This document shows, piece by piece, positions 2,690 through 61,824 of a DNA stretch of 64,000 bases (position 1 is the first letter of the stretch; every line of letters begins with the position of its first letter). The DNA is from Arctopsyche grandis (lineage: Eukaryota > Arthropoda > Insecta > Trichoptera > Hydropsychidae): the NCBI RefSeq assembly GCF_051622035.1, contig NC_135356.1:6366079-6430078 (forward strand), written 5' to 3'. Both the position numbers and the translations under genes were made by a program. A model generated the notes under the pieces. That model did not search any database, was not told the DNA's origin, and was given only the letters and a program-made list of their open reading frames with translations.

Positions 2690-3690
2690 GTATGTGACTC
2701 CACAACAATGTGACTCCACAACACTTTTCAAGGTAACCATGGATAGAGAGAAGATATATATATCATGATATTCAACCTCCTACGAGGAGAGGAATAAAAA
2801 GAAGAAGAAGAAGTTATGTATGTAAAAAAATCTGAATTTAATTATTCAGGATGGAATATATCACTGTAATTTTACTACACATCGTATATAATACAGAGAA
2901 ATATTACATTTCTCTGATATAATATACACATTATTCTGTGTATGTAGTACCTTTCAACACTCTTCCTTACAAAGTTTCAAGTGTGGTCTCAAAAACGAAC
3001 CAGAATCTGAAGGGTCAGTCGATATTGGGCAATTCAATGTTGAGTGTTGACAAGTAAATGGGTCGTCTCGTGGTCGACCTGGCTGCCAATCGGATGTAGG
3101 TGCACCATTATTAGCATCAGCTCGATGATGACATTGGTTTCAGATCATCATTGACCCAACAACGGCTGACGTCAAACGCACCTGAATGACCTTACGTCGG
3201 CGTCTGTTGATGGACATCGCATTCCCTTATCAATGTCGAGATGAAATTTCATACGAATTTATTAATACCTGTCACACACCTGGAAGTCGAGTTGCTTTGT
3301 TCGCATTTGGCAACAATAATGGCCACCATTCAATAATATTAATACCAGTCTTGTTATGTATAGTAATAGATCATGTGATTGATCGTTGTCAACATGTTAC
3401 AACTATTTCTCTTATTGCATTCTCCGACATCAGGTGGTAAATTCTTGGATCGCGTTATCAAAACAAAGTTTTTTTCCTGAATTAATTTAGGGTTGATATA
3501 TTTTTATCTTTATCGTTTCGATTCTGAAGGATTACGGAAATTATTTCATACATTATAGAAATATATTAATAACTTGTTTGGGGCTCTACGACATGTTCGA
3601 GTTTGGGTTGCTATCTTGTGAGTTTGGACTGATTCGAGCATGTTGGTGGCTACCACTTTACTTCCTTCCGTCATTTTATTCTTTTCGCCC
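2690..3690. other. Stretch without a recognisable gene
   Basis: Short palindromic AT-rich sequence near 2880-2945 and a higher-GC block at 2950-3440. The block contains an open frame at 3186-3440 with no motif I recognise. It could be an old LTR or transposon fragment; nothing definite is seen. Confidence 0.3.
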
Positions 3691-3698
3691 CCATAAGA

Positions 3699-4125
3699 GC
3701 CAACAGCATAGCTCGGTCGTTAAGCTTCTGCTTAACACCGAGAGGCGCAGGGTTCGACCCCATGAGCTGACCTCGATCGAAAAGAGTGCATCTGTAGTGC
3801 TGCTGGTCAGACTTGGATATTTGTGACTCCAGGTCGATCGTGTCCTATCAGAGCTTGCCAATTTTCTCTGATTTCATTGTTGAAACGGTTCCCGTTTAAA
3901 TTGACTAAAAATCCTTCCTGCCTACTATGTCACCACTATTTGAGTATTATTAATGTACAATAAAATTTATGTACAATTCATAGATGTCTCGTTAGTTTGT
4001 GAGTTTTTCAGTGTCTCGTAATTCAACGAATAAAAATGCTGCATTGTTTGTAATTGGCCAGGAAGGCGCATTGGGGTTTACCTGCAAGGCCTTCTTGGTA
4101 TATATGTAAAAAATAAATAAATAAA
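3699..4125 (+). mobile_element. tRNA-derived SINE, full-length copy
   Basis: The head resembles a tRNA promoter: an A-box-like stretch at TAGCTCGGTCGTTAAG and a B-box-like GGTTCGACCCC about 50 bp downstream. It is followed by a unique body (CTGGTCAGACTTGGATATTT and AATTTTCTCTGATTTCATTG) and a 3' block with GGCCAGGAAGGCGCATTGG, ending in an AAATAAATAAATAAA tail. Other copies: 57,905-58,318 (-), 24,095-24,495 (-), and partial ones near 5.4, 5.6, 13.9, 27.1, 42.0 and 57.7 kb. Confidence 0.85.
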
Positions 4126-31268: not shown

Positions 31269-34200
31269 TATTGCTGTCGGTTCCCTCATCACTGAGGATC
31301 GTGACTATGATGTGCGGTCAACCAGCTGCCTCCATTCAGTTCTAAATTCGGCCAGGCGAAGACTTGCTACCGTGGAAGCGCCCGTCGCTGCAGATACTTG
31401 GTCAGTCCAGCGTGCGGGGGATCTGCCTCTGGCTCTTCTGCCTTCGACGCTACCAACCACAACCAACCGCTCCAGGCTCTCCTCACCTCTTCGTGCAATG
31501 TGGCCGAAGAACTGCAATATACGTTTCAGGCATATTGTTGACAATCTATCCTTGATTTTCAATTCTTCAAGAATAGACACATTCGTGCGTTTGTCGGTCC
31601 AAGGCACGCGCAGTAGCCGTCTCCAGGACCACATCTCGAAGGCATCGATTCTCCTTCTATCCGCCGCCTTCATGGTCCACGTCTCGACACCATAAAGGCA
31701 GACAGAAAAAACGAGACTCTTCACGAGACGGATTTTGACAGCAGTTGTAATGGCTCTATTCTTCCAAATCTTCGTTAGTTGTGACATTGCCGATTTTGCT
31801 AATGTAATCCGGCGCCGTATTTCCAATTCGCTGCCGCCGTTGTTAGATATGAGTGACCCCAGATAGACAAAATTATCAACCACATCTATACCGTTTAAAG
31901 CTGAGTTGTTGTTTTGCAGCTGTTGGTGACGGTCAATTATCATAATTTTTGTTTTGGGGCGGTTTATCTGGAGGCCAAGCACATTACTCTCTGTCTCAAC
32001 ACGACGGATCAGTTCGGCCATTTCTTCATGATTATTAGCTATGAGCGTTGTGTCATCCGCATACCGAAGATTGGATAGTTTTTTTCCACCAATGGACACT
32101 CCACCCTTCCAACCATCCAGTGCTCTACGCATTATATACTCTCCATATATATTAAATAGGTCTGGAGATAATATACACCCTTGCCTTACTCCACGTTGTA
32201 CTCGAAAATTTGTCGAGTTTAGCGAATTGATTCGAACTACTGCATTGTTATCATTATACAAGTTATGTATTATCTTTACAAGATGCATGGGGACTCCCAT
32301 GTCCAGTAGAACTTTCCACAGATAGTCCCAGTTCACAAAGTCAAAAGCTTTTTTATAGTCTATAAAACAAAGAACGGCTGGAGTTTGAAACTCCCGACAT
32401 TTTTCAATGAGTTGACGTATATTCAGTATTTGTTCCCTCGTCCCTTTGCCTTTTACAAACCCTGCTTGTTCGTTCGGTATTTGCCATCCAAGGTAACTGC
32501 TCAAACGATCTTTAATTATATACAGCAATACTTTACTAGAGTGCGATATTAAGGCTAAGGTCCTGTAATTCTCGCATCTTTTTGTAGATCCTTTCTTGTG
32601 TAAGGGAATGAATATTGAATTGACCCAATCTTTCGGCCATACTCCGTTTACCCAGATCTTGTTGCACATATTACATAGCGCCTTTATCGCAGTTTCACCA
32701 AGCTCTTTCAGAAGTTCAGCTTGTATACCATCGCTGCCAGGAGACTTTTTACATTTCAGTTTCTTTATGGCATTTACAACTTCAGATGTCAAGATGTCAG
32801 GCTCCCTGACATCATCAATAAGGGAAACAATTGAGGTCGACGAACTACCACTGTACAATTCCGAACAGTATTCTTTCCATCGGTTGAGTATCACATCAAT
32901 ATCTGTAAGCGTGTTTCCAAATTGATCATCTATTGTCCAAGTTTTGGGTGAAAATTTTTGAGTGACGATTTTTACTTTGTGAAAAATATCCCTTGCCTGA
33001 TTCTTTAATGCGTGTTTTTCTATCTCCTCACATATGTCATTTATATATTTAGCTTTATCCCGCCTACAACTCCTTTGAATATCTTTATGTAATATTGCAT
33101 ACCTTTCAAGATATTCTGTCGATGTTATGCCAGTTTGTTTAAGTCTTTTACGTTCTTTTATCTTAACCCAAGTTGAATCAGAGATAAAAGACTTACGATG
33201 TTCATTTTGCGGTGTTTGATGTTTTCTGGCATACCGAATTATGAGATCTTTAAAAATTTTCCAAGACTCTTCTACATCTACATTAGGATTTATTTGGAAT
33301 TCTGCATCTTTTTCTCTGATTACATTGCCAAAATTAATTACATCATCATTGGTGAGTTTAATTGCTTTATTTTGATGTCTTTTAATCATTTTCAATTTCA
33401 GTCGAAATTTAGCAACAAGTAAGTTATGGTCCGATCCGCAATCTGCACCTGGATATGTTTTGACGTTATGTATCGATGATTTCCATCTAGAATTTATTAA
33501 TACATAATCGATTTGGTTGCGGTGACGATCCCCAGGAGATATCCAAGTGTACAATCGCCTAGGATGATGTTGAAACCAAGTATTCATAATGGACATTTTA
33601 TTTTCAATGCAGAAACTTATAAGTTTCTCTCCTCTCTCATTTTGAATACCCAATCCATATTTACCTACTATGTTATCAATGTTGCTATTATTACCGACTT
33701 TGGCATTCACCAACAAATCACCAAGAATGATGGTCATTTCTTTGTTTGAGATATTTGACAATGTATCGAGTAGTGAAGCATAGAACGCATTTATTTTAAT
33801 ATCTTCGGCATCTGCAGTAGGAGCATATATTTGAAGGATGTTTAGTTTATACGGATGCGTGTTGAGTTTTAAGTGTATAAGTCTGTCACTTATGGGGTTG
33901 TAGCCAATTAGTGCACTGGTTAATTTAGATGCTAAGATCACCGCGACACCGCTATGTGACGAATCTTGGTTACCAGAAAAATATATCGTATTTCCATTTG
34001 AAGTTTTATAATGGCCGTTGTTCTTCCAGTGCGTTTCCGAGATTCCGAGTATATCTAGCCCATGACTGTACATCTCTTTCTCAACAACCAGTGTTTTCCC
34101 AGGATTCAGGAGTCCTCTAACGTTCCAAGTACCTATTTTGGATTTGTTCCGTAAAGTTTCTCCAGTCGCATATTTTCCACATGATGCCTGGTGAGTCACA

Positions 34201-34778
34201 TGCATGTGGCCAGTAGCCAATTTCACACCGTGAGACCTGGAACCTCGAAGGCGCCGGGTGTCAGCCGGAGAGTCAGACTTCTTCACACTTTTATTTTTGT
34301 ACATCATAGTTATCTTGGGAGAATACTGCAGTGGATTCCCACTTCCTTCTACAGCGCAGTAAATGTTTTGACATCTTATACTGGCAGAGCTGCTGCCCAC
34401 TACCAGGGATTTATTATAGAGTTTCCTTCTCTGTCAAAGATGATACGGTACCTTTGAAAACCGGGTTGTGCTTTTGTTAAGCGGCGGCACTTACTCGCCG
34501 CTGACCTGAGACCGTCATAGTGTTGTGTGACATTTTATAGAGTGAAACTTACCACGGATTCACTCATCACCACTCTTATCTCAGCGCTCCTTGTCCAGGA
34601 CCACCATGTCGCCATGGCAGTTGACTGCAAGAGTCATTCCCCTATTTGCAACTTGGGGACCTGAGCGGTTGCATGGAGCTCTGCTCTGAGCTTATTAATT
34701 ACTCCGTGCGGACGGACGTGTGTTTCCATTTATGATATATTTACATATATAGACAGTTTATTCACAATCATAATATTT
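31269..34778 (-). mobile_element. RTE-like LINE with 14-bp target duplication
   Basis: A 14-bp direct repeat, ATCATTGGGGTATA, lies on both sides (31,255-31,268 and 34,779-34,792), a typical target-site duplication of LINE retrotransposition. The 3.5-kb insert holds one long minus-strand ORF, about 380 bp of 5' leader and a very short 3' end without a long poly(A). The intact flanks and open frame suggest a recent insertion. Confidence 0.85.
31305..34400 (-). CDS. LINE endonuclease-reverse transcriptase (1,031 aa)
   Basis: Single uninterrupted ORF. Around residues 85-330 is an apurinic-type endonuclease: KIGTWNVRGL, ISETHWKNNG, then RNQIDYVLI and ADCGSDHNLLVAKF. Around 540-830 is the reverse transcriptase: NYRTLALISHSSKVLL, FIDYKKAFD (about residue 682), GVRQGCILSPDLFN and catalytic YADD in LRYADDTTLIAN (about 780). 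The C-terminus has YGVETWTMKAADRRRIDAFE and FGHIARRGEESL, typical of RTE/BovB-like elements. Proteins of this kind are often misnamed craniofacial development protein 2. One oddity: the endonuclease motif that normally reads GDFNAKVG is GDLLVNAKVG, two residues longer (about residue 226), which may impair cleavage. The first ATG is uncertain, since the roughly 80 residues before the endonuclease match nothing I know. Confidence 0.9.
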   Translation of the reverse strand: MGSSSASIRCQNIYCAVEGSGNPLQYSPKITMMYKNKSVKKSDSPADTRRLRGSRSHGVKLATGHMHVTHQASCGKYATGETLRNKSKIGTWNVRGLLNPGKTLVVEKEMYSHGLDILGISETHWKNNGHYKTSNGNTIYFSGNQDSSHSGVAVILASKLTSALIGYNPISDRLIHLKLNTHPYKLNILQIYAPTADAEDIKINAFYASLLDTLSNISNKEMTIILGDLLVNAKVGNNSNIDNIVGKYGLGIQNERGEKLISFCIENKMSIMNTWFQHHPRRLYTWISPGDRHRNQIDYVLINSRWKSSIHNVKTYPGADCGSDHNLLVAKFRLKLKMIKRHQNKAIKLTNDDVINFGNVIREKDAEFQINPNVDVEESWKIFKDLIIRYARKHQTPQNEHRKSFISDSTWVKIKERKRLKQTGITSTEYLERYAILHKDIQRSCRRDKAKYINDICEEIEKHALKNQARDIFHKVKIVTQKFSPKTWTIDDQFGNTLTDIDVILNRWKEYCSELYSGSSSTSIVSLIDDVREPDILTSEVVNAIKKLKCKKSPGSDGIQAELLKELGETAIKALCNMCNKIWVNGVWPKDWVNSIFIPLHKKGSTKRCENYRTLALISHSSKVLLYIIKDRLSSYLGWQIPNEQAGFVKGKGTREQILNIRQLIEKCREFQTPAVLCFIDYKKAFDFVNWDYLWKVLLDMGVPMHLVKIIHNLYNDNNAVVRINSLNSTNFRVQRGVRQGCILSPDLFNIYGEYIMRRALDGWKGGVSIGGKKLSNLRYADDTTLIANNHEEMAELIRRVETESNVLGLQINRPKTKIMIIDRHQQLQNNNSALNGIDVVDNFVYLGSLISNNGGSELEIRRRITLAKSAMSQLTKIWKNRAITTAVKIRLVKSLVFSVCLYGVETWTMKAADRRRIDAFEMWSWRRLLRVPWTDKRTNVSILEELKIKDRLSTICLKRILQFFGHIARRGEESLERLVVVGSVEGRRARGRSPARWTDQVSAATGASTVASLRLAEFRTEWRQLVDRTS

Positions 34779-34819: not shown

Positions 34820-35184
34820 TGTTTTGGACTAGGATAACCAACCTTTTTATACAATGAAATTTTTAAAGTGAGAAAAAAATCTAAAAATATTCCCATCAAT
34901 CTTTATGCTAAAAATTATTGCAAAATTTAAAATACTACATTTTTTATACAACAAAATTTTAAAAATGGGAAAAAAAATCAATTAATCCCACTGTCTTAAT
35001 GCTATAAATTATTGTAAAATTTAAAATAAAATAAATTTTTTGACTAGCGTAACCAACCTTTTTTATAAAACGAAATTTTTGAACAGAAAAAAATCTAAAA
35101 ATTTTCTCATCGTTTTTATGCTATAAATGATGGCAAAATTTAAAATTAAATATTTTTTTGGACTAGGCTAACCAACCTTTTTTT
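34820..35184 (+). repeat. Satellite-like tandem array, left part
   Basis: About three units of roughly 105-125 bp. Each has (G)ACTAGGNTAACCAACCTTT, TATACAACGAAATTTTTAAA, ATCTAAAAATNTTCCCATC, TTTATGCTATAAATTATTG and CAAAATTTAAAATA. The array resumes at 38,435 after the MULE; a reversed unit fragment lies at about 39,265-39,340. Confidence 0.8.
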
Positions 35185-35200
35185 AGGCAACAAATTAAAC

Positions 35201-35445
35201 GGTCAGAATTTAAATCATTTTTGGGTCAGAATAAAAATAAAATTTCGGTCAGAATTTTAATAACAACATGGTCAGAATAAATAATCAATGGTTAGAATAA
35301 AAATATAGTTAGATAAATGGTCAGAATAAAAATTATATATGGTCAGAAAAAAGTAATAATTGGTCAGAATGTGAAAATTAATAAATGGTCAGAATGTCGA
35401 AAAATAATGAATGGTCAGAATATTTAAAAATAACAAGTAGTCAGT
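35201..35445 (+). repeat. Iterated GGTCAGAAT motifs, left MULE end
   Basis: About ten copies of GGTCAGAAT (some with one change) at 20-30-bp spacing, separated by A/T-rich sequence. The right end carries the complement ATTCTGACC. Such arrays near transposon ends are usually binding sites for the transposase; that role is inferred. Confidence 0.8.
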
Positions 35446-35682
35446 CAGCCGAAAATACATAAAACTTTATTCCAATTTTCCAATTAATTCAAAATTAATT
35501 TTAAATGTTTAATTAGTTCTTCTATTAAAAAAATAATATGCTTTAATTACAAGTAAACCTTCAAATTTATCGCACATAAATTATTTTATTATATAATAGT
35601 AACACCTGTAGTCATCATATATTACCTAAAAAAGGAAAACAAAAAAAACATTGTATTTATCATTATATCATACACTTTTTTT

Positions 35683-37855
35683 CTAATCGACAATAAGAGC
35701 TTTAGTTGCCAATTTTGGCCTCTCTCTTTTCCTCATCAAACCTATTGGAATTTGTTTGGCTGCCGGTGGAGGTTTTATATACTTTAGAACTATTGCCAGC
35801 CCAATTATGTGTTTACAAATATACTTAGGGCAAGTGCATCGACCACTACTCCAATCCTCTGCAGGCAATTCGATAATCCACCCTTTGAACCCGGTTTCTT
35901 TGAATTCGTCAAATGTGCTCCACTTTATGTCTTTAATTTTGATTAATTCTTCTTTAGCTACCGAGTTTCCTTTGGCCGGGCATAAATATATATTAGATTT
36001 ATCAACAGGAAAAATATTTAACTTCGATTTGGCCAGTTGATAGGCTTTGGTCCATTCATCTAAGTGGATTGTTGTTTTCATATGAAATTCTCTTAATCCA
36101 TGCACATAGTCTATAGACCACTTTTCCAGTGATTTTAATGCTAGTTGCGCAAATATCTCGATAAAGGCAGCCTTTCTCTTAAAGTCTCTTCTTTTTTAAT
36201 GCATAAGTTAAATGACTCCAATGCATTATTTGTAGAAGGTGTGAGCATTGCCACACCTTCATACCAGTTTTGGTGGCTTGTAAGCCACTGTTTCAGCATG
36301 TAGTCTATAAATATAGACACCTCCTTTGTCGGAGACAATTGGAGTGTGTCAATGTCTTCTAATAATTCTGTCCTAGACTCTGCATTTACTAAACTTTCAA
36401 CGTTTTTAACAACATTCCTACGCATATGCGCCCAACACATAATTTGTGTTTTATCTGCACCAAACGCATTCTCAAATGCATTTTTAATCGCATTCGATGC
36501 ATCAGAAATCAAATACTCAACATTGTATTCTTCATTAATATTTTTTAATCCTATTAATAAAGATTGTAAAATGAATTCAAAATCCGACTGGCTTTCACCA
36601 GAACTAACAGCCGTTCCCGTTGGATGGAAATGCCTGTCTAAATCATTAGTTCTGATGATAATTACAGGCATGCCCTCCCACACCAATTTGTATGTTGCAT
36701 CAATGTGGATATTGTTTCTTATCTTCGCATTTTTTAATAGCCTATTTGTCGACATGAAAATGGAAAATCCCTTCTGATTTTCAATTTCATTCTCCTTTTC
36801 TTCATCGGGATATACTATTTTGTGAGACAGAACATATGATGTGTCGTCATCATCAGGAATTTTAGAGTGATCTATGCACCACTGTTCCATCTCTCCCAAA
36901 TTAATTTTATTCGGCCCATATGTTTGGTGTCTTAATTTTGATAAAAAGTTGGACAGCAGAGTTTTTTTTATCATTAATCCCTGTGAGGCTAACATCTCCA
37001 TTATTCTCTTGGGCTTAATTTTTAAATCAAAGTATGATTTAATTTTTTCTTTAATTTCATCGTTCAATTTACTTGTATTGACTTCCAGCTCTTCATGAGA
37101 GTGTCCTTCTTCAGTTTTGAATAAGATTATTTTTGTGTCATCGGAACAATATAAAATATATAATCCAGCATCACATTGCTGCCCTCTTCTTTTGACCGTT
37201 TGCCCGCGGCCCTCTTCTATGGAACCTTTGGGCGACAAGTATGTAGCGCAGCTGTCTTCCATAGAATTTCTAAACTTTGCACGGGATTTTGAGGTTTATA
37301 TGCGCCTATTTCAACTGTTTTATGGTTCAAAATTGGTTGAATATATTACTGAGAGTTGAATGCCATCTATTCAATTTGCTTAAAATGAATATACCAGTCA
37401 AAAATTAGTTTTTTGTGGAACCATACTGAAACCTCGTTTATGTGACGTCACGTCTTCATACAATTATGAAGAATGATTATTTGACAATTAATCCAAAACT
37501 ACGAGATATATTATGTGTTTTATTGTTTAAAATAATAATGTATGTGCTAATTAACATATCTGGTTACTTGAGTAAATATTAAAATCTGTATTTAAGGTCG
37601 AAAACTCGATTGCCATTCGCGAAAAAGGTGCCGCGTACAGGGCTTATTCGCTATATTTATTGCCGCGGGCAAAGGGTTAATTGCGTTGCAGCGATAATAA
37701 TCTTTTCTACCTTTATCAGTAACACTGTTGTAGTGGTAACTCCTTACATTTTCTTTTTTCACTGCATCAACCACTTCTTCTTTTGTATTACATGTCCACG
37801 CTCTTTGACTGAACTCACCATTCTCGACTAAAGTCGAGGATGTGGGTGGTGGGTG
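35683..37855 (-). pseudogene. MULE transposase, one frameshift and one nested insertion
   Basis: Reading on the minus strand, 37,855-37,681 encodes AWTCNTKEEVVDAVKKENV and KGRKDYYRCNA. After the nested element, 37,191-36,170 continues RRGQQCDAGLYILYCSDD and EEGHSHEE, completing a FLYWCH-like finger. The DDE core follows: NNIHIDATYKLVWEG (first Asp), YLISDASNAIKNAF (second Asp), CWAHMRRNV, and TNNALESFN (Glu). Near 36,176 one base appears to be missing; the shifted frame continues EIFAQLALKSLEKWS into 36,105-35,683. That part ends with a SWIM finger, CTCPKYICKH (CxCx5CxH), and a basic tail. All domains of a MULE transposase are present, so the copy decayed recently. The true start codon is not identified. 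Confidence 0.85.
37196..37676. mobile_element. Nested TTAA-type (piggyBac-like) element, 481 bp
   Basis: Ends CCGTTTGCCCGCGGC and GCCGCGGGCAAAGGG are inverted repeats. The target duplication is TTGA (37,192-37,195) and TTAA (37,677-37,680), one base changed. It lies inside the FLYWCH-like coding region of the MULE. Joining the flanks with one copy of the target gives RCNAIKRRGQQCDAG in one frame. No coding capacity; assignment to piggyBac rests on TTAA and the CCCTTTG-type end. Confidence 0.8.
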
Positions 37856-38434
37856 TTAGCTAAGGTCTGATATATGTTTTGTTGAAGAGGGTTGTATATA
37901 GTGCGCGAGCGCGTACCACGAATGATCCTCTTGAGTCCTCTTGACCACTTGTACCAATCTTCAACGTTACACGCACTAGTAATGATACGAGTGCCAACTG
38001 ACAAAAAAGGAATCTGACCGTTTAATACAAATTATGACCAATCCAGTTTAAATTCTGACCATTCAACACGTTCAACCCGTCGTGTACCACCGGTGGTCAC
38101 GCGGATAGTGCTGCAGCAGACTATAATTTTACGGTTCCACTTCATTGAGCACCCCAAACACTAAAATTCCTATAAAATCCTAAAGATTTAGGGACAACTC
38201 ATTATATAAAGTGATTTAATGCCGTCACGCGTAATTGGGTGTCGATACGCGTGACAGTGTCGCCACATGGGCTAATGTATGAAATCATGCGCCAGGCTGA
38301 ATGTTTTAATATTTATTTTAGTTCTAGTATTCTGACCGTTTAATATTTATTCTGACTAATGTTATATAAATTCTCACCCATGTCATATAAATTCTGACCA
38401 AAAACGGATTAAAATTCTGACCCGAAAAATACGA

Positions 38435-38630
38435 GCCCTTTTTTATACAACGAAATTTTTAAAGTGAGTAATAAATATTCCCATCCTCTTTATGCTGCAA
38501 ATTATTGCAAAATTTAAAATACTACATTTTTTGACTAGGGTGACTAGTCTTTTTTAATACAACAAAATTTTACAAATGGGAAAAAAAATCTGAAAATAAT
38601 CTCATCGTCTTTATGCTATAAACTAGTGTT
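38435..38630 (+). repeat. Satellite-like tandem array, right part
   Basis: Continues the units of 34,820-35,184: TATACAACGAAATTTTTAAA, ATTCCCATCCTCTTTATGCT, GACTAGGGTGACTAGTC, then a second unit to about 38,627 (TTTATGCTATAAACTAG). Confidence 0.75.
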
Positions 38631-43317: not shown

Positions 43318-43813
43318 GGGCGAAATCAAACAGCGGTGAATGTGAAACGTGGTTTTTTTTTTTAGACAGTTTTAAACATATAGAAAAAATGTGGCGTTCA
43401 TGGGATGCGTACATGGGATAGTCCTTTCAAAACCATATATGTCGTTGAAGTTGTATGGTAGTATTTATCCTTGCTTGACTGTGATCTATACCAAAACGAC
43501 CCTTTGGACTATTTTCGGTAAAATTATATCCTTGCTTGACTTGACAGTGATCGATAACGAATATGGGATACACTGTTAGCGATCACTGTCAAGCAATACA
43601 GTTTTACCGAACATTGTTCAAAGGGTCGTTTTCGTATAGATCACTATCAAGCAAGGATAAATACTACCATACAATTTCAACGACATAAGTCGAACGTATC
43701 GTTTTGAAAGGACTATCCCATGTACGCGTCCCATGAACGCCACATTTTTTCTATATGTTTAAAACTATTTAAATAAAACCACGTCCCACATTCACCGCTG
43801 TCTGATTTCGCCC
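43318..43813. mobile_element. Foldback MITE of PIF/Harbinger type (496 bp)
   Basis: The two halves are inverted copies over almost their whole length (about 230 bp each). Ends are GGGCGAAATCAAACAGCGG / CCGCTGTCTGATTTCGCCC, and the flanks are TAA on both sides (43,315-43,317 and 43,814-43,816). The TAA duplication and GGGC end suggest PIF/Harbinger. Related arms occur at 59,214-59,405 and 62,150-62,230. Confidence 0.8.
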
Positions 43814-43839
43814 TAAATCTCATGCATACAAACTTGTCC

Positions 43840-45218
43840 CGTATTACCTTCCAGCCTGAGATGTTCTCCCGTTTAGTCTTCATCAATTATTTAGGTCCCG
43901 TATTCTTTTTACTCTATATTAATGATATCTCATACATCTTCAAACATTCCTTTATACTTCTTTACGCTGATGATTTAAAAATTTACAAACCAATATACAC
44001 CATAGACGATTGTCATAAGATACAAGAAGATCTAGATAGATTCTCTATATATTGTTTAAATAATGATCTTTTTATTAATCTAGAAAAATGCTCTATTTTA
44101 AATTTCACTAGAAATAAGTCAATTATTACCAATCACTATCAATTAAATCATTCAATCCTTAACACGTCATCTTCTATTAAGGATCTTGGTGTAATACTCA
44201 ATAATAAACTAGATTTCTCTGAACATATTTCTTTTATTACCAACAAAGCATTTAAATCTCTTGGATTCCTACTCCGCTCAACAAAACCCTTTAATGATCC
44301 TTATGTACTTAAATTACTTTATTTTTCCTTTGTAAGGTCTCACCTTGAATTTGCCTCAATTATCTGGTCACCTTTTTATTTATCCCATATTAATTGTATT
44401 GAGAAAGTTCGACTTAAATTTATTAAATCCTTACGCTACCTTTTTCCTACCTATACCCATTCTACTGTTTCCGACATTTTAAAAATCCTTTCTTTTAACA
44501 ATCTTTCTGTCAGGCGACGACATACTGATGCTATATTCTTCTTTAAGCTCATAAATGGTTTCCTTGATTGTTCTGATTTACTGAATAAGGTTAATTTCAG
44601 AATCCCAGTTCGGTACTCTAGACGCGTTGCACTCTTTTCACTTGATCCTTTAAATACTAATTCCCAAAAATATTCTTATCTGCAGCGCGTTTATCGTATG
44701 TTTAACGGAGAGCTGAATGAGATTGATCTATTTGGTATTTCCCTACATCAATTCAGGTCTAACATCAAGAGATTGATTCATTTCTGCTCCTATTCTATTT
44801 TTCCAATATTTCCAATATTTTTATACTTTAGTTTAGTTATGTAATGTGCTATTTAATCATATTATAGCTTTCATTCTTTTCTTTTTCATTTGTTTATTTT
44901 GTATTTACCTTTTTCATTTGTTTTATATTTGTAAATTTCAATTTCTTCTTATATTCTATTTTATAACCTTTTCCCAATATTTTAATACTATAGTTTAATT
45001 ATGCAATGTTCTACATATTTTGTCATGCCTTTATTCTTTACTTTTTAATTTGTTTTCCTTATATTTATCTTTTTCATTTTTGTAAAAATCTGTTATTCGA
45101 CTCGGATGTTTCATATATTATTTATTTACTATTTGTTTTTTTATACATATCTATGTACATCCTGTCTGTTGATTTTTCAATAAATAAAATAAAATAAAAA
45201 TAAAATAAAATAAAATTA
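43840..45218 (+). mobile_element. 5'-truncated CR1/jockey-group LINE with ATAAA tail
   Basis: Contains the second half of a reverse transcriptase ORF, about 330 bp of 3' untranslated sequence and a terminal (AAAAT)n tail at 45,178-45,218. The 5' break lies just right of the Harbinger-type MITE. Confidence 0.8.
43882..44844 (+). pseudogene. LINE reverse transcriptase, C-terminal half
   Basis: The open frame reads LGPVFFLLYINDISYIFKHS, then the catalytic box LLYADDLKIYKPI, then SIKDLGVILNNKLDFSEHIS and LKLLYFSFVRSHLEFASIIW, with the thumb region ending near FRSNIKRLIHF. The motif order is that of CR1/L2/jockey-type LINEs. The catalytic YADD is intact, but the first RT motifs and the endonuclease are lost by 5' truncation, so it cannot be autonomous. 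The upstream ATG at 43,822 is not a true start. Confidence 0.85.
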
Positions 45219-59489: not shown

Positions 59490-59655
59490 ACGGTTCGGTG
59501 ATTATTGTCCACAAAGCGCTCACCCCAGAGGTCACTAAAATCTCTGTATCGGAACATCTGGCAGCCGAAAAGTCATACTAACGAGAACTCGAGTGCCAAA
59601 TAAGAAAATTGTCTTTTGGGCGATCGCAATGTGCGTAATAATCCAATTACCCTTT
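59490..59655. mobile_element. Foldback MITE, family 'GTGATTATT', copy D
   Basis: Starts CGGTGATTATTGTCCACAAA, contains GGAACATCTGGCAGCCGAAA and GAGAACTCGAGTGCC, and ends GCGTAATAATCC. It is most like copy A at 11,935 (shared TTGTCTTTTGGGCGATCG). Confidence 0.65.
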
Positions 59656-59896
59656 TAACCCGTTGGGTGCTCACGACGCGCCTGTCGTGTTCAGAAAATT
59701 TCCGTAGACTCGACGATCGCGCTTTGTCCCTTTCCAAAAGAAAGGTTCAAAAAAAAAAAAACCGCACTTGCTGTAGTAACGCAAGAAGCATTCAATTTAT
59801 TCGCCTAAAGGTCTCTATTTTAAAATTTAAATTAATTGTATATAAGCTTAGTAAATGTAAGTGAATATACTAAAATGTCTAATGGGTGATCCAAAT

Positions 59897-60400
59897 ATTT
59901 TTTTTTTTTGATTTTTAAATGCTTTTTATTATTACGAAATTATGTTCACAATACATCTTATTTAATTTGGTTAGTAATCACAGTATTATATTATTCTAAT
60001 GTTAATCTAAAGCATAATAGGAAAAAGAGCTCAAAAACCTATTTACAATCCTTATAAATGTTCATAAATACATCTAATACATAATATTAATTAAAGACTC
60101 TCTAAAGTCGAAGACCTAAAGCAGATTGTGTTTAGGTAATCTGTGTGTTATACCTGAAGGGTATAGACATTTTGTTGTAATCACCGAGACTCTTCACAAG
60201 TGTGTTAGTATGGTTATTAGTGATTCTGTCATAGAATCTACTGGTTAGTTTGTTAGTAATGTCTGTAACAAACGGAATATTATATATGGCATGCAGTGTT
60301 TTCAGGTTAGTATATATGGGTGTATTCCACACAGGTGAAGCATAGGTTAATAATGGTAATATGAGCGCGCGATATAATTTTATTTTATTTAGCGTTGATA
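59897..60400 (-). pseudogene. Jockey-type LINE 3' relic
   Basis: The minus strand from about 60,400 reads LTYASPVWNTPIYTNLKTLH, AIYNIPFVTDITNKLTSRFY and NNHTNTLVKSLGDYN. LTYA-x-PVW, a later FYDRI and H-x-NxLV are the hallmark C-terminal blocks of jockey-clade LINEs. It is followed by a 3' untranslated region and poly(A) (T-run at 59,897) shared with 50,837-51,046. The catalytic part is gone. Confidence 0.8.
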
Positions 60401-60548
60401 AAGAACTATGAGATATATAAAGAAAGAACCAAATATGATGCTATCACTTTATATGTAAAAATGCAATTTTTTTTTCGATTTACGTGCTTACACGATAATG
60501 GTGAGTCGTGAGCATAGCCGTATAGCACCCTGGAAAGATATAACTAGT

Positions 60549-61824
60549 CACCGGAGCCTGAGGGGGCCGTGTATTGTTCAAAGGTTGTAAATGCATTGTT
60601 AAAGGTTTGCCGAACAATGGATAGCACTGTGACTATCCTACCTCTAGATATAACAGTCGACGAATTTAAAATTTGGCTAGGACTTTTGCTGCACATGGGG
60701 ACCATACGATTGAATCGTCAAAGTGATTATTGGAAAAAACATTATTTATTCAATCTCACCACATTCTCCCAATTTATGTCTCGTGATAGATTTTTTTTTG
60801 ATTCAGAGGGCTTTGCATTTTAATAATAATGAAGAAGACGATACTAGCATGGGTAAAATAAAGCCACTTATACAATTTTTTAATTCCAAAATGACGGAAA
60901 TATATGCTCCCAGTAGAGAATTGACGATTGATGAGTCATTAGTTTTGTGGAGGGGTAGACTTCTCATTCGTCAATACATGAAAGGGAAAAAGGCGAAATA
61001 TGGAATTAAATTATATATGTTGGGACAATCTAATGGTCTAGCATTAAAAATTATTGTATATGGTGGTTCTACTGATACAGAATTGGGTGGCAAAGACCAC
61101 ACTGATGGAGGAAAAAGCTGGACAAGGCCATTCACTGTTTATGGACAACTATTACAACAGTATTCCATTGACGGAATCATTGTTAAAACAAAAAACCTAT
61201 GTTACTGGAACACTGAGGGCGAATCGGAAATATAATCCGATAGCGGTTCTAAATAAAAAATTTAAAAAAAATGAATCCGTGATGCAATATACTCCAGAAG
61301 GAATATGCAATACCGAATGGAAAGATCGTCGAGAGATTTTGACGATTTCCTAGGAATTTAATGGGGTGTCCAATCGCCGAGGCAATGTTGTAGAAAAACC
61401 GAATATGATAATTCAATATAACAAATTTATGGGGGGAGTAGATTACCACGATCAGATGCTAGCCTACTACCCATGTAGGAGAAAAACTCTAAGATGGTAC
61501 AAAAAATTGGGCATACATCTATTTCAGACAATGTTATTAAATTCTTATTACATGTATATTACGCACAATACCAAGAAAATGTATTTGTACGATTTTAGGC
61601 TGCAAATAATAGCGCCTCCCCCAAAACAAAATCTTCATCGCCTGCATCTTCCCAGTTTTTGTGACAAAGACCAGTGGGGAAAAACGAAAAGAAGACGGTG
61701 CCACTATTGCTGGAGGGAACGAAAGGAGAGAACATCCACTTTCTTTTATTGTATGAAATGTGCAAAGGGTTTGTGTCTATACCCGTGCTTTAAATCTTAT
61801 CACGACGAAAATTTTTATTAAAAA
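60549..61824 (+). pseudogene. piggyBac transposase relic
   Basis: Spread over three frames. First: ILPLDITVDEFKIWLGLLLH and GTIRLNRQSDYWKK. Then ALHFNNNEEDDTSMGKIKPL and the first catalytic region, SRELTIDESLVLWRGRLLIR. Then, after a shift, SLFMDNYYNSIPLTESLLKQ (second catalytic Asp in MDNYY). Then QYNKFMGGVDYHDQMLAYYP (third Asp region) and a C-terminal Cys-rich finger, RCHYCWRERKERTSTFFYCM. All three catalytic Asp residues survive, but at least two frameshifts and an in-frame TAG at 61,351 disable the copy. The leader (60,549-60,615) matches 8351-8415. Clear terminal repeats with TTAA were not found beside it. Confidence 0.9.

Follow-up and report, generated by a model that had tools for sequence, protein, structure and literature searches.

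A decayed MULE with two nested TTAA MITEs, one of them in its transposase gene, in the genome of Arctopsyche grandis

MITEs of the piggyBac type are non-coding, occur in high copy number, and have short inverted ends and TTAA target duplications; both the duplication of TTAA and the inverted ends are what piggyBac-type transposases give. Among MULEs, the Muta elements of Aedes aegypti have target duplications of 8–9 bp, arrays of short subterminal repeats, an N-terminal finger, and non-autonomous derivatives. Muta1 is 3,198 bp long and Muta5 3,496 bp, and a SWIM finger is reported for Muta6 only (PMC5225508).

We analysed a window (the whole stretch of 64,000 nucleotides, contig NC_135356.1, positions 6,366,079–6,430,078) of the trichopteran A. 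grandis. It holds a MULE relic whose family resembles the Aedes Muta elements in having 9-bp duplications, subterminal arrays, an N-terminal finger, and non-autonomous derivatives (PMC5225508). Unlike Muta1 and Muta5, the element measures only about 2.5 kb without its inserts; and unlike Muta as described, it has degenerate terminal inverted repeats (arms of 43–48 nt at 75–79%), a finger that Pfam does not recognise as FLYWCH, and a SWIM finger besides, which within Muta is reported for Muta6 only (PMC5225508). We are almost certain that the locus is a decayed MULE in which two TTAA MITEs are nested, one of them in the transposase gene. The two MITEs, called MITE 1 and MITE 2 below, share with piggyBac-type TTAA MITEs their non-coding nature, high copy number, short inverted ends, and TTAA duplications. 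The titles and abstract openings of the open-access literature gave no description of these MULE and MITE families, which are perhaps new, of known kinds. The locus is a clean but ordinary nested-transposon relic. As a clean three-element stack with empty sites for both inserts, it is useful for annotating the repeats of this genome and helps to define one MULE and two MITE families; it brings no change to the known workings of MULE or MITE elements.

The anatomy of the host element is directly observed, and its main features are as follows.

35,186–38,437, minus strand: MULE relic of about 2.5 kb (both inserts excluded), its transposase encoded on the minus strand; terminal sequences GGCAACAAATT...ACGAGCC (from PF10551 and the flanks of relatives)
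35,177–35,185, no strand: left copy of the MULE target duplication, CTTTTTTTA (from the sequence)
38,438–38,446, no strand: right copy of the MULE target duplication, CTTTTTTAT (from the sequence)
35,201–35,421, plus strand: left subterminal repeat array of the GGTCAGAAT type, made of 10 units, of which 8 are exact and 2 have one mismatch
38,011–38,422, minus strand: right subterminal repeat array of the GGTCAGAAT type, split by MITE 2, 8 units (4 exact, 4 with one mismatch)

The element has what defines a MULE: the MULE transposase domain, a target duplication of 8–10 bp, and long terminal inverted repeats (degenerate here), accompanied, as is often the case, by subterminal ones. Its ends were refined to 35,186–38,437 by projection onto relatives, which were taken from 29 MULE-related loci, the best 40 of 219 candidates having been scored. 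Fourteen of these 29 loci were left out of the counts of ends and duplications, as their two ends could not be placed on the same strand. In the other 15, whose ends were projected from local alignments, the 9-bp flanks are identical in 9, agree at 8 of 9 bases in 2, and do not match in 4; two of the nine with identical flanks (L082 and L087) have flanks in common and look like duplicates. The projected start is GGCAA in 15/15 relatives, and the end is CC, like that of the window, in 12/15. The window's own duplication pair is identical at 7 of 9 positions when compared ungapped, with a poly-T of unequal length. Relatives of 0.76–1.25 kb resemble the element at its ends alone and show that the family has moved copies lacking a full transposase gene. 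To the left of the MULE lies an AT-rich repeat (34,844–35,028, unit of about 94 bp), with similar sequence on the right (about 38,438–38,630), which is the landing site of the MULE; in the neighbouring AT-rich units, around 34,838 and 35,050, the target is unbroken by eye.

The transposase is now found in three pieces.

37,679–37,855, minus strand: N-terminal piece to YYRCNAI, first half of the finger, no ATG (PF23674 RYYR-CCHC, E 0.002, 18.5 bits, below the 27-bit cut-off)
36,141–37,193, minus strand: middle piece, beginning with KRRGQQCD, which holds the rest of the finger and the MULE catalytic domain (PF10551, E 5.6e-10 over 36,141–37,190)
35,683–36,195, minus strand: C-terminal piece, read in a different frame, whose SWIM-type finger is four residues shorter than those of relatives (SWIM, E 0.00057)

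The match to the MULE domain PF10551 (E 6.9e-10) reaches 39.7 bits for a cut-off of 27.6, and the middle piece is 39% identical to a 599-aa ORF of a distant relative (L101, contig C3). A search of PDB sequences with the middle piece returned three matches (E 0.054–0.7), none of them a transposase. The SWIM finger of the window is barely a member of its family, at 19.8 bits vs a cut-off of 19.6, and that of L101 scores 21.6 bits (E 0.00016). Over the two window pieces the N-terminal finger has the spacing C-x9-C-x23-H-x-H, and in L101 C-x9-C-x23-H-x-C. The first-pass annotation had called this finger FLYWCH-like: a Cys/His finger is indeed present, but the FLYWCH model of Pfam matched neither the window pieces with their split finger nor the uninterrupted L101 at E up to 0.5, and the nearest model is RYYR-CCHC, below its cut-off. 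'FLYWCH-like' is thus a description and not a membership. In another SWIM-bearing MULE transposase, a 598-aa open frame at L102:188–1984 (G000:C12:22699800–22701900), C2H2 fingers (zf-H2C2_2, E 1.7e-17) replace the N-terminal finger, a possible finger-transposase fusion.

The first of the two inserts lies in this gene.

37,196–37,676, no strand: MITE 1, a 481-bp copy of a TTAA MITE family with a 485-bp consensus, inverted ends CCGTTTGCCCGCGGC / CCCTTTGCCCGCGGC
37,192–37,195, no strand: left TTAA duplication of MITE 1, now TTGA (from the sequence, the family flanks, and the empty site)
37,677–37,680, no strand: right TTAA duplication of MITE 1 (from the sequence, the family flanks, and the empty site)

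MITE 1 reads CCGTTTGCCCGCGGC...GCCGCGGGCAAAGGG between TTGA and TTAA, so that the insert of 481 bp, its ends, and its flanks are all as the first-pass annotation had given them. The inverted ends are 15 bases long with one mismatch, and arms of 19 bases, flanks included, are 89% complementary. When the 475.7-Mb assembly was searched, the best 40 of 1,323 candidates scored were the window copy and 39 others at 94–96% identity, nearly all full length and spread over 12 of the 13 large contigs. Flanks were read for 27 of these 39: TTAA borders both ends in 23 and a single end in 4. The window copy differs from the consensus of the 27 (485 bp) at 13 of 481 bases (2.7%) and by 4 deleted bases, a consensus built from the copies nearest to the query, so that the distance from the whole family may be larger. 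TTAA followed by CCSTTTGCCCGC, the 12-base end of MITE 1, has 1,231 exact occurrences in the genome (580 on the plus and 651 on the minus strand) vs 0 occurrences of the reversed control. Within the window the only exact matches to the end are the two of MITE 1 itself; with two mismatches allowed there are 4 matches vs 2.17 expected, a number reached by 12 of 100 shuffles. Judged from its sequence, MITE 1 is a member of a high-copy, non-coding TTAA MITE family.

The empty counterpart of this site was directly observed. In a MULE copy on contig C10 (L060), the alignment to the window stops at 37,196 and restarts at 37,677, the two parts being joined on one TTAA. This is the copy without insert, with a single TTAA, that the first-pass annotation had suggested looking for. 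It is itself a relic, with broken frames and a stop at the MITE 1 site, so its evidence concerns the site in DNA and not an intact gene. MITE 1 was found in 0/29 MULE-related loci, among which only this one place (L060, L069, and L079 being the same) covers the site in DNA. The distant relative L101 has one uninterrupted ORF across the finger, with YYRCNKVQSRGVQCD at the position of the window's YYRCNAI / KRRGQQCD, although its N-terminal side resembles that of the window only weakly (22% over 54 residues, E 0.002). In the window, the minus-strand pieces end in YYRCNAI and resume with KRRGQQCD in compatible phase, as expected from the earlier proposal that the insert splits the gene between YYRCNA and KRRGQQCD and that its removal restores one frame. 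One could take the 481 bp for an intron of the transposase gene or for an ancestral segment of it, since they lie inside it and both halves are open around them. We rejected this on the empty C10 site and the continuous 599-aa relative, and we consider it very improbable, the more so as copies of the insert are dispersed over the genome as a family, which has ends and TTAA duplications of its own. The first-pass annotation had itself named the presence of the 481 bp in all MULE copies, with splice sites used in transcripts, as what would speak for such an origin, and the insert is found in 0/29. The TTAA-flanked family, the empty site, and the uninterrupted relative all agree with its claim of a TTAA-type element nested in a MULE transposase.

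The insert falls between two cysteines of the finger, and the occupied TTAA is the only one within the two finger segments. Since the MULE segments without inserts hold 38 TTAA in all (right-hand target copies of both inserts included), the position of MITE 1 in the finger is best seen as chance and is unremarkable after the fact.

Because MITE 1 splits the reading frame, the window copy should make no intact transposase. Other damage is visible as well. The pieces 36,141–37,295 and 35,683–36,195 overlap but lie in different frames, with a break at about 36,150–36,183. One missing base near 36,176 had been proposed here; the frame break is real, and the length differs there from that of the C10 copy twice, by 2 bases each time. 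Compared with C10, the window transposase also misses 51 bases near 36,317 and 12 near 35,826, both in frame, and L101 has residues at both positions; the C10 copy in turn is without other stretches that are present in the window. The N-terminal open piece (37,679–37,855) offers no ATG as a start for the transposase. The first-pass annotation, for which the insert and one missing base accounted for every coding break it could see, had not mentioned the two in-frame gaps and the lack of an ATG before the finger. The MULE pair of window and C10 differs at 60 of 1,255 positions (4.8%), and no other MULE copy at ≥80% identity spans the protein. Over 848 aligned coding bases, the differences by codon position are 8/282, 13/283, and 12/283, an even divergence of the kind expected of unselected relics, although the numbers are small. 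This evenness bears on the idea that MITE 1 serves the split gene by lending it an ATG and an open frame that continue into the catalytic piece, the predicted product then missing the finger's first half. An ORF (36,141–37,295, minus strand) does start inside MITE 1 and stays open as far as the MULE domain, but it meets the frame break before the SWIM finger and lies in copies that diverge about evenly over codon positions, so that we would give such a role hardly any credence.

The first-pass annotation named one TTAA insert only. The second surfaced as another repeat family, at about 38,065–38,310, in a search with the right part of the MULE.

38,067–38,305, no strand: MITE 2, a 239-bp member of another TTAA MITE family, unrelated to the first (family ends CACGTTCAACCC / CACATTCAGCCC)
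38,063–38,066, no strand: left TTAA duplication of MITE 2, now TCAA (from the sequence, the family flanks, and the empty sites)
38,306–38,309, no strand: right TTAA duplication of MITE 2 (from the sequence, the family flanks, and the empty sites)

Its family gave 40 matching rows beyond the window's own, at 91–96% identity (40 scored of 353 candidates), and of 29 other copies whose flanks were read, 24 have TTAA on both sides and 5 on one. The window copy differs from a consensus of its nearest copies at 10 of 238 bases (4.2%), and exact end sites number 246 in the genome vs 0 for the control. The site is empty, with a single TTAA, in all nine relatives printed, which were chosen from the 29 MULE-related loci and some of which look like duplicates. 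In L065 (contig C3), the sole carrier of MITE 2 among the 29, the site used in the window is likewise empty and a MITE 2 with an internal gap (L065:2612–2808) occupies the next TTAA of the same array. Since this copy sits at a different TTAA, and the window's site is empty there, the MITE 2 family has entered MULE subterminal arrays twice independently: in the right array of two MULE copies, at the TTAA at 38,306 in the window and at about 2,612 in L065. The repeat units often contain TTAA, and for this reason one might see in these arrays a recurrent foothold for TTAA MITEs, the ends of one family being the landing pad for another; we think this generalisation unlikely.

Taken together, these observations suggest the following history. 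A MULE inserted into an AT-rich repeat; its transposase carried a Cys/His finger at the N-terminus, a DDE domain of the MULE type, and a SWIM finger at the C-terminus. Two non-coding MITEs from separate families then each entered MULE sequence at a TTAA, which was duplicated: for MITE 1 this was the only TTAA of the counted finger segments, and for MITE 2 it was one within the right subterminal array. Both were presumably moved in trans by piggyBac-type transposases. The MULE copy has also drifted, acquiring the frame break and the in-frame gaps. We infer that the nesting took place at this locus. The order given by the first-pass annotation, MULE insertion first and TTAA transposon second, is shown for the MULE sequence, which is older than the entry of the MITEs into it; for this locus it is likely rather than strictly shown, as a loaded MULE could have moved here. 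The composite might thus have formed elsewhere, MITE 1, MITE 2, or both entering the MULE at another locus and the loaded element moving here by a transposase made elsewhere. Such a transfer is compatible with the MULE ends and the 7-of-9 target duplication present here, and the end-only relatives of 0.76–1.25 kb show that copies moved without the full gene. We nevertheless find it unlikely: no second composite was seen among the 29 related loci (from 40 candidates scored, the best of 219), and the MULE and MITE divergences are too similar to order. Substitution distances (13/481 for MITE 1, 10/238 for MITE 2, 60/1,255 for the MULE pair) do not place the events in sequence, and we retain nesting in place as the preferred account.

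Regarding the enzyme, we scored 116 piggyBac-type (PF13843) matches among 605 candidates in the genome, many of them with open frames. Thirteen tie at the top score of 306.3 bits, with open frames of 541–566 aa, which suggests recent activity of this set. Among eight piggyBac-type stretches fetched, L095 has two ends beginning CCCTTTG and L089 one such end, to be compared with CCCTTTG/CCGTTTG in MITE 1. The ends of MITE 1 are close to those of L095, from the same genome; the exact ends of either MITE, and hence a same-ended autonomous partner, were found in 0/8 of the stretches examined (of the 116 scored). Seven of the eight hold some TTAA-flanked inverted pair with at least 10 of 13 bases matching, a count that has no chance control. 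Longer candidates were also fetched, three TTAACCSTTTGCCCGC-ended stretches and one MITE 2-ended stretch, with ORFs listed for two; tblastn of the eight longest piggyBac-type ORFs and of a piggyBac relic of the window against these four longer MITE-ended stretches (CCSTTTGCCCGC-type and MITE 2) gave no match at 1e-3. The end sites listed were the first 100, which for MITE 1 all lie on contig C1. Both MITEs were presumably mobilised in trans by piggyBac-type transposases.

The relic just mentioned, at 59,655–61,821 (plus strand), is a broken piggyBac-type element with two transposase pieces (PF13843, E 3.4e-21 and 4.6e-11; zf-Tnp_2, E 9.8e-6) and, by eye, a left-end-like sequence, TTAACCCGTTGGGTG. 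It was rejected as the source of the MITEs: neither MITE end pattern occurs near 59–62 kb, and the left-end-like sequence differs by eye. Several clustered or nested MITE 1 relatives occur in L098:1–4101, one of the four longer stretches (matches at 4–131, 347–752, and 3572–4075); next to the second of these lies a short segment that looks similar to the relic by eye, with no match by tblastn.

Two open frames of the window lie outside the stack. A 355-aa frame at 43,777–44,844 (plus strand) matches no Pfam model at E up to 0.5 and contains a YADD motif, which is typical of reverse transcriptases. Less than 1 kb from the MULE, at 31,305–34,433 (minus strand), there is an open retrotransposon ORF of 1,042 aa that encodes an endonuclease domain and a reverse transcriptase domain (RVT_1, E 1.5e-34).
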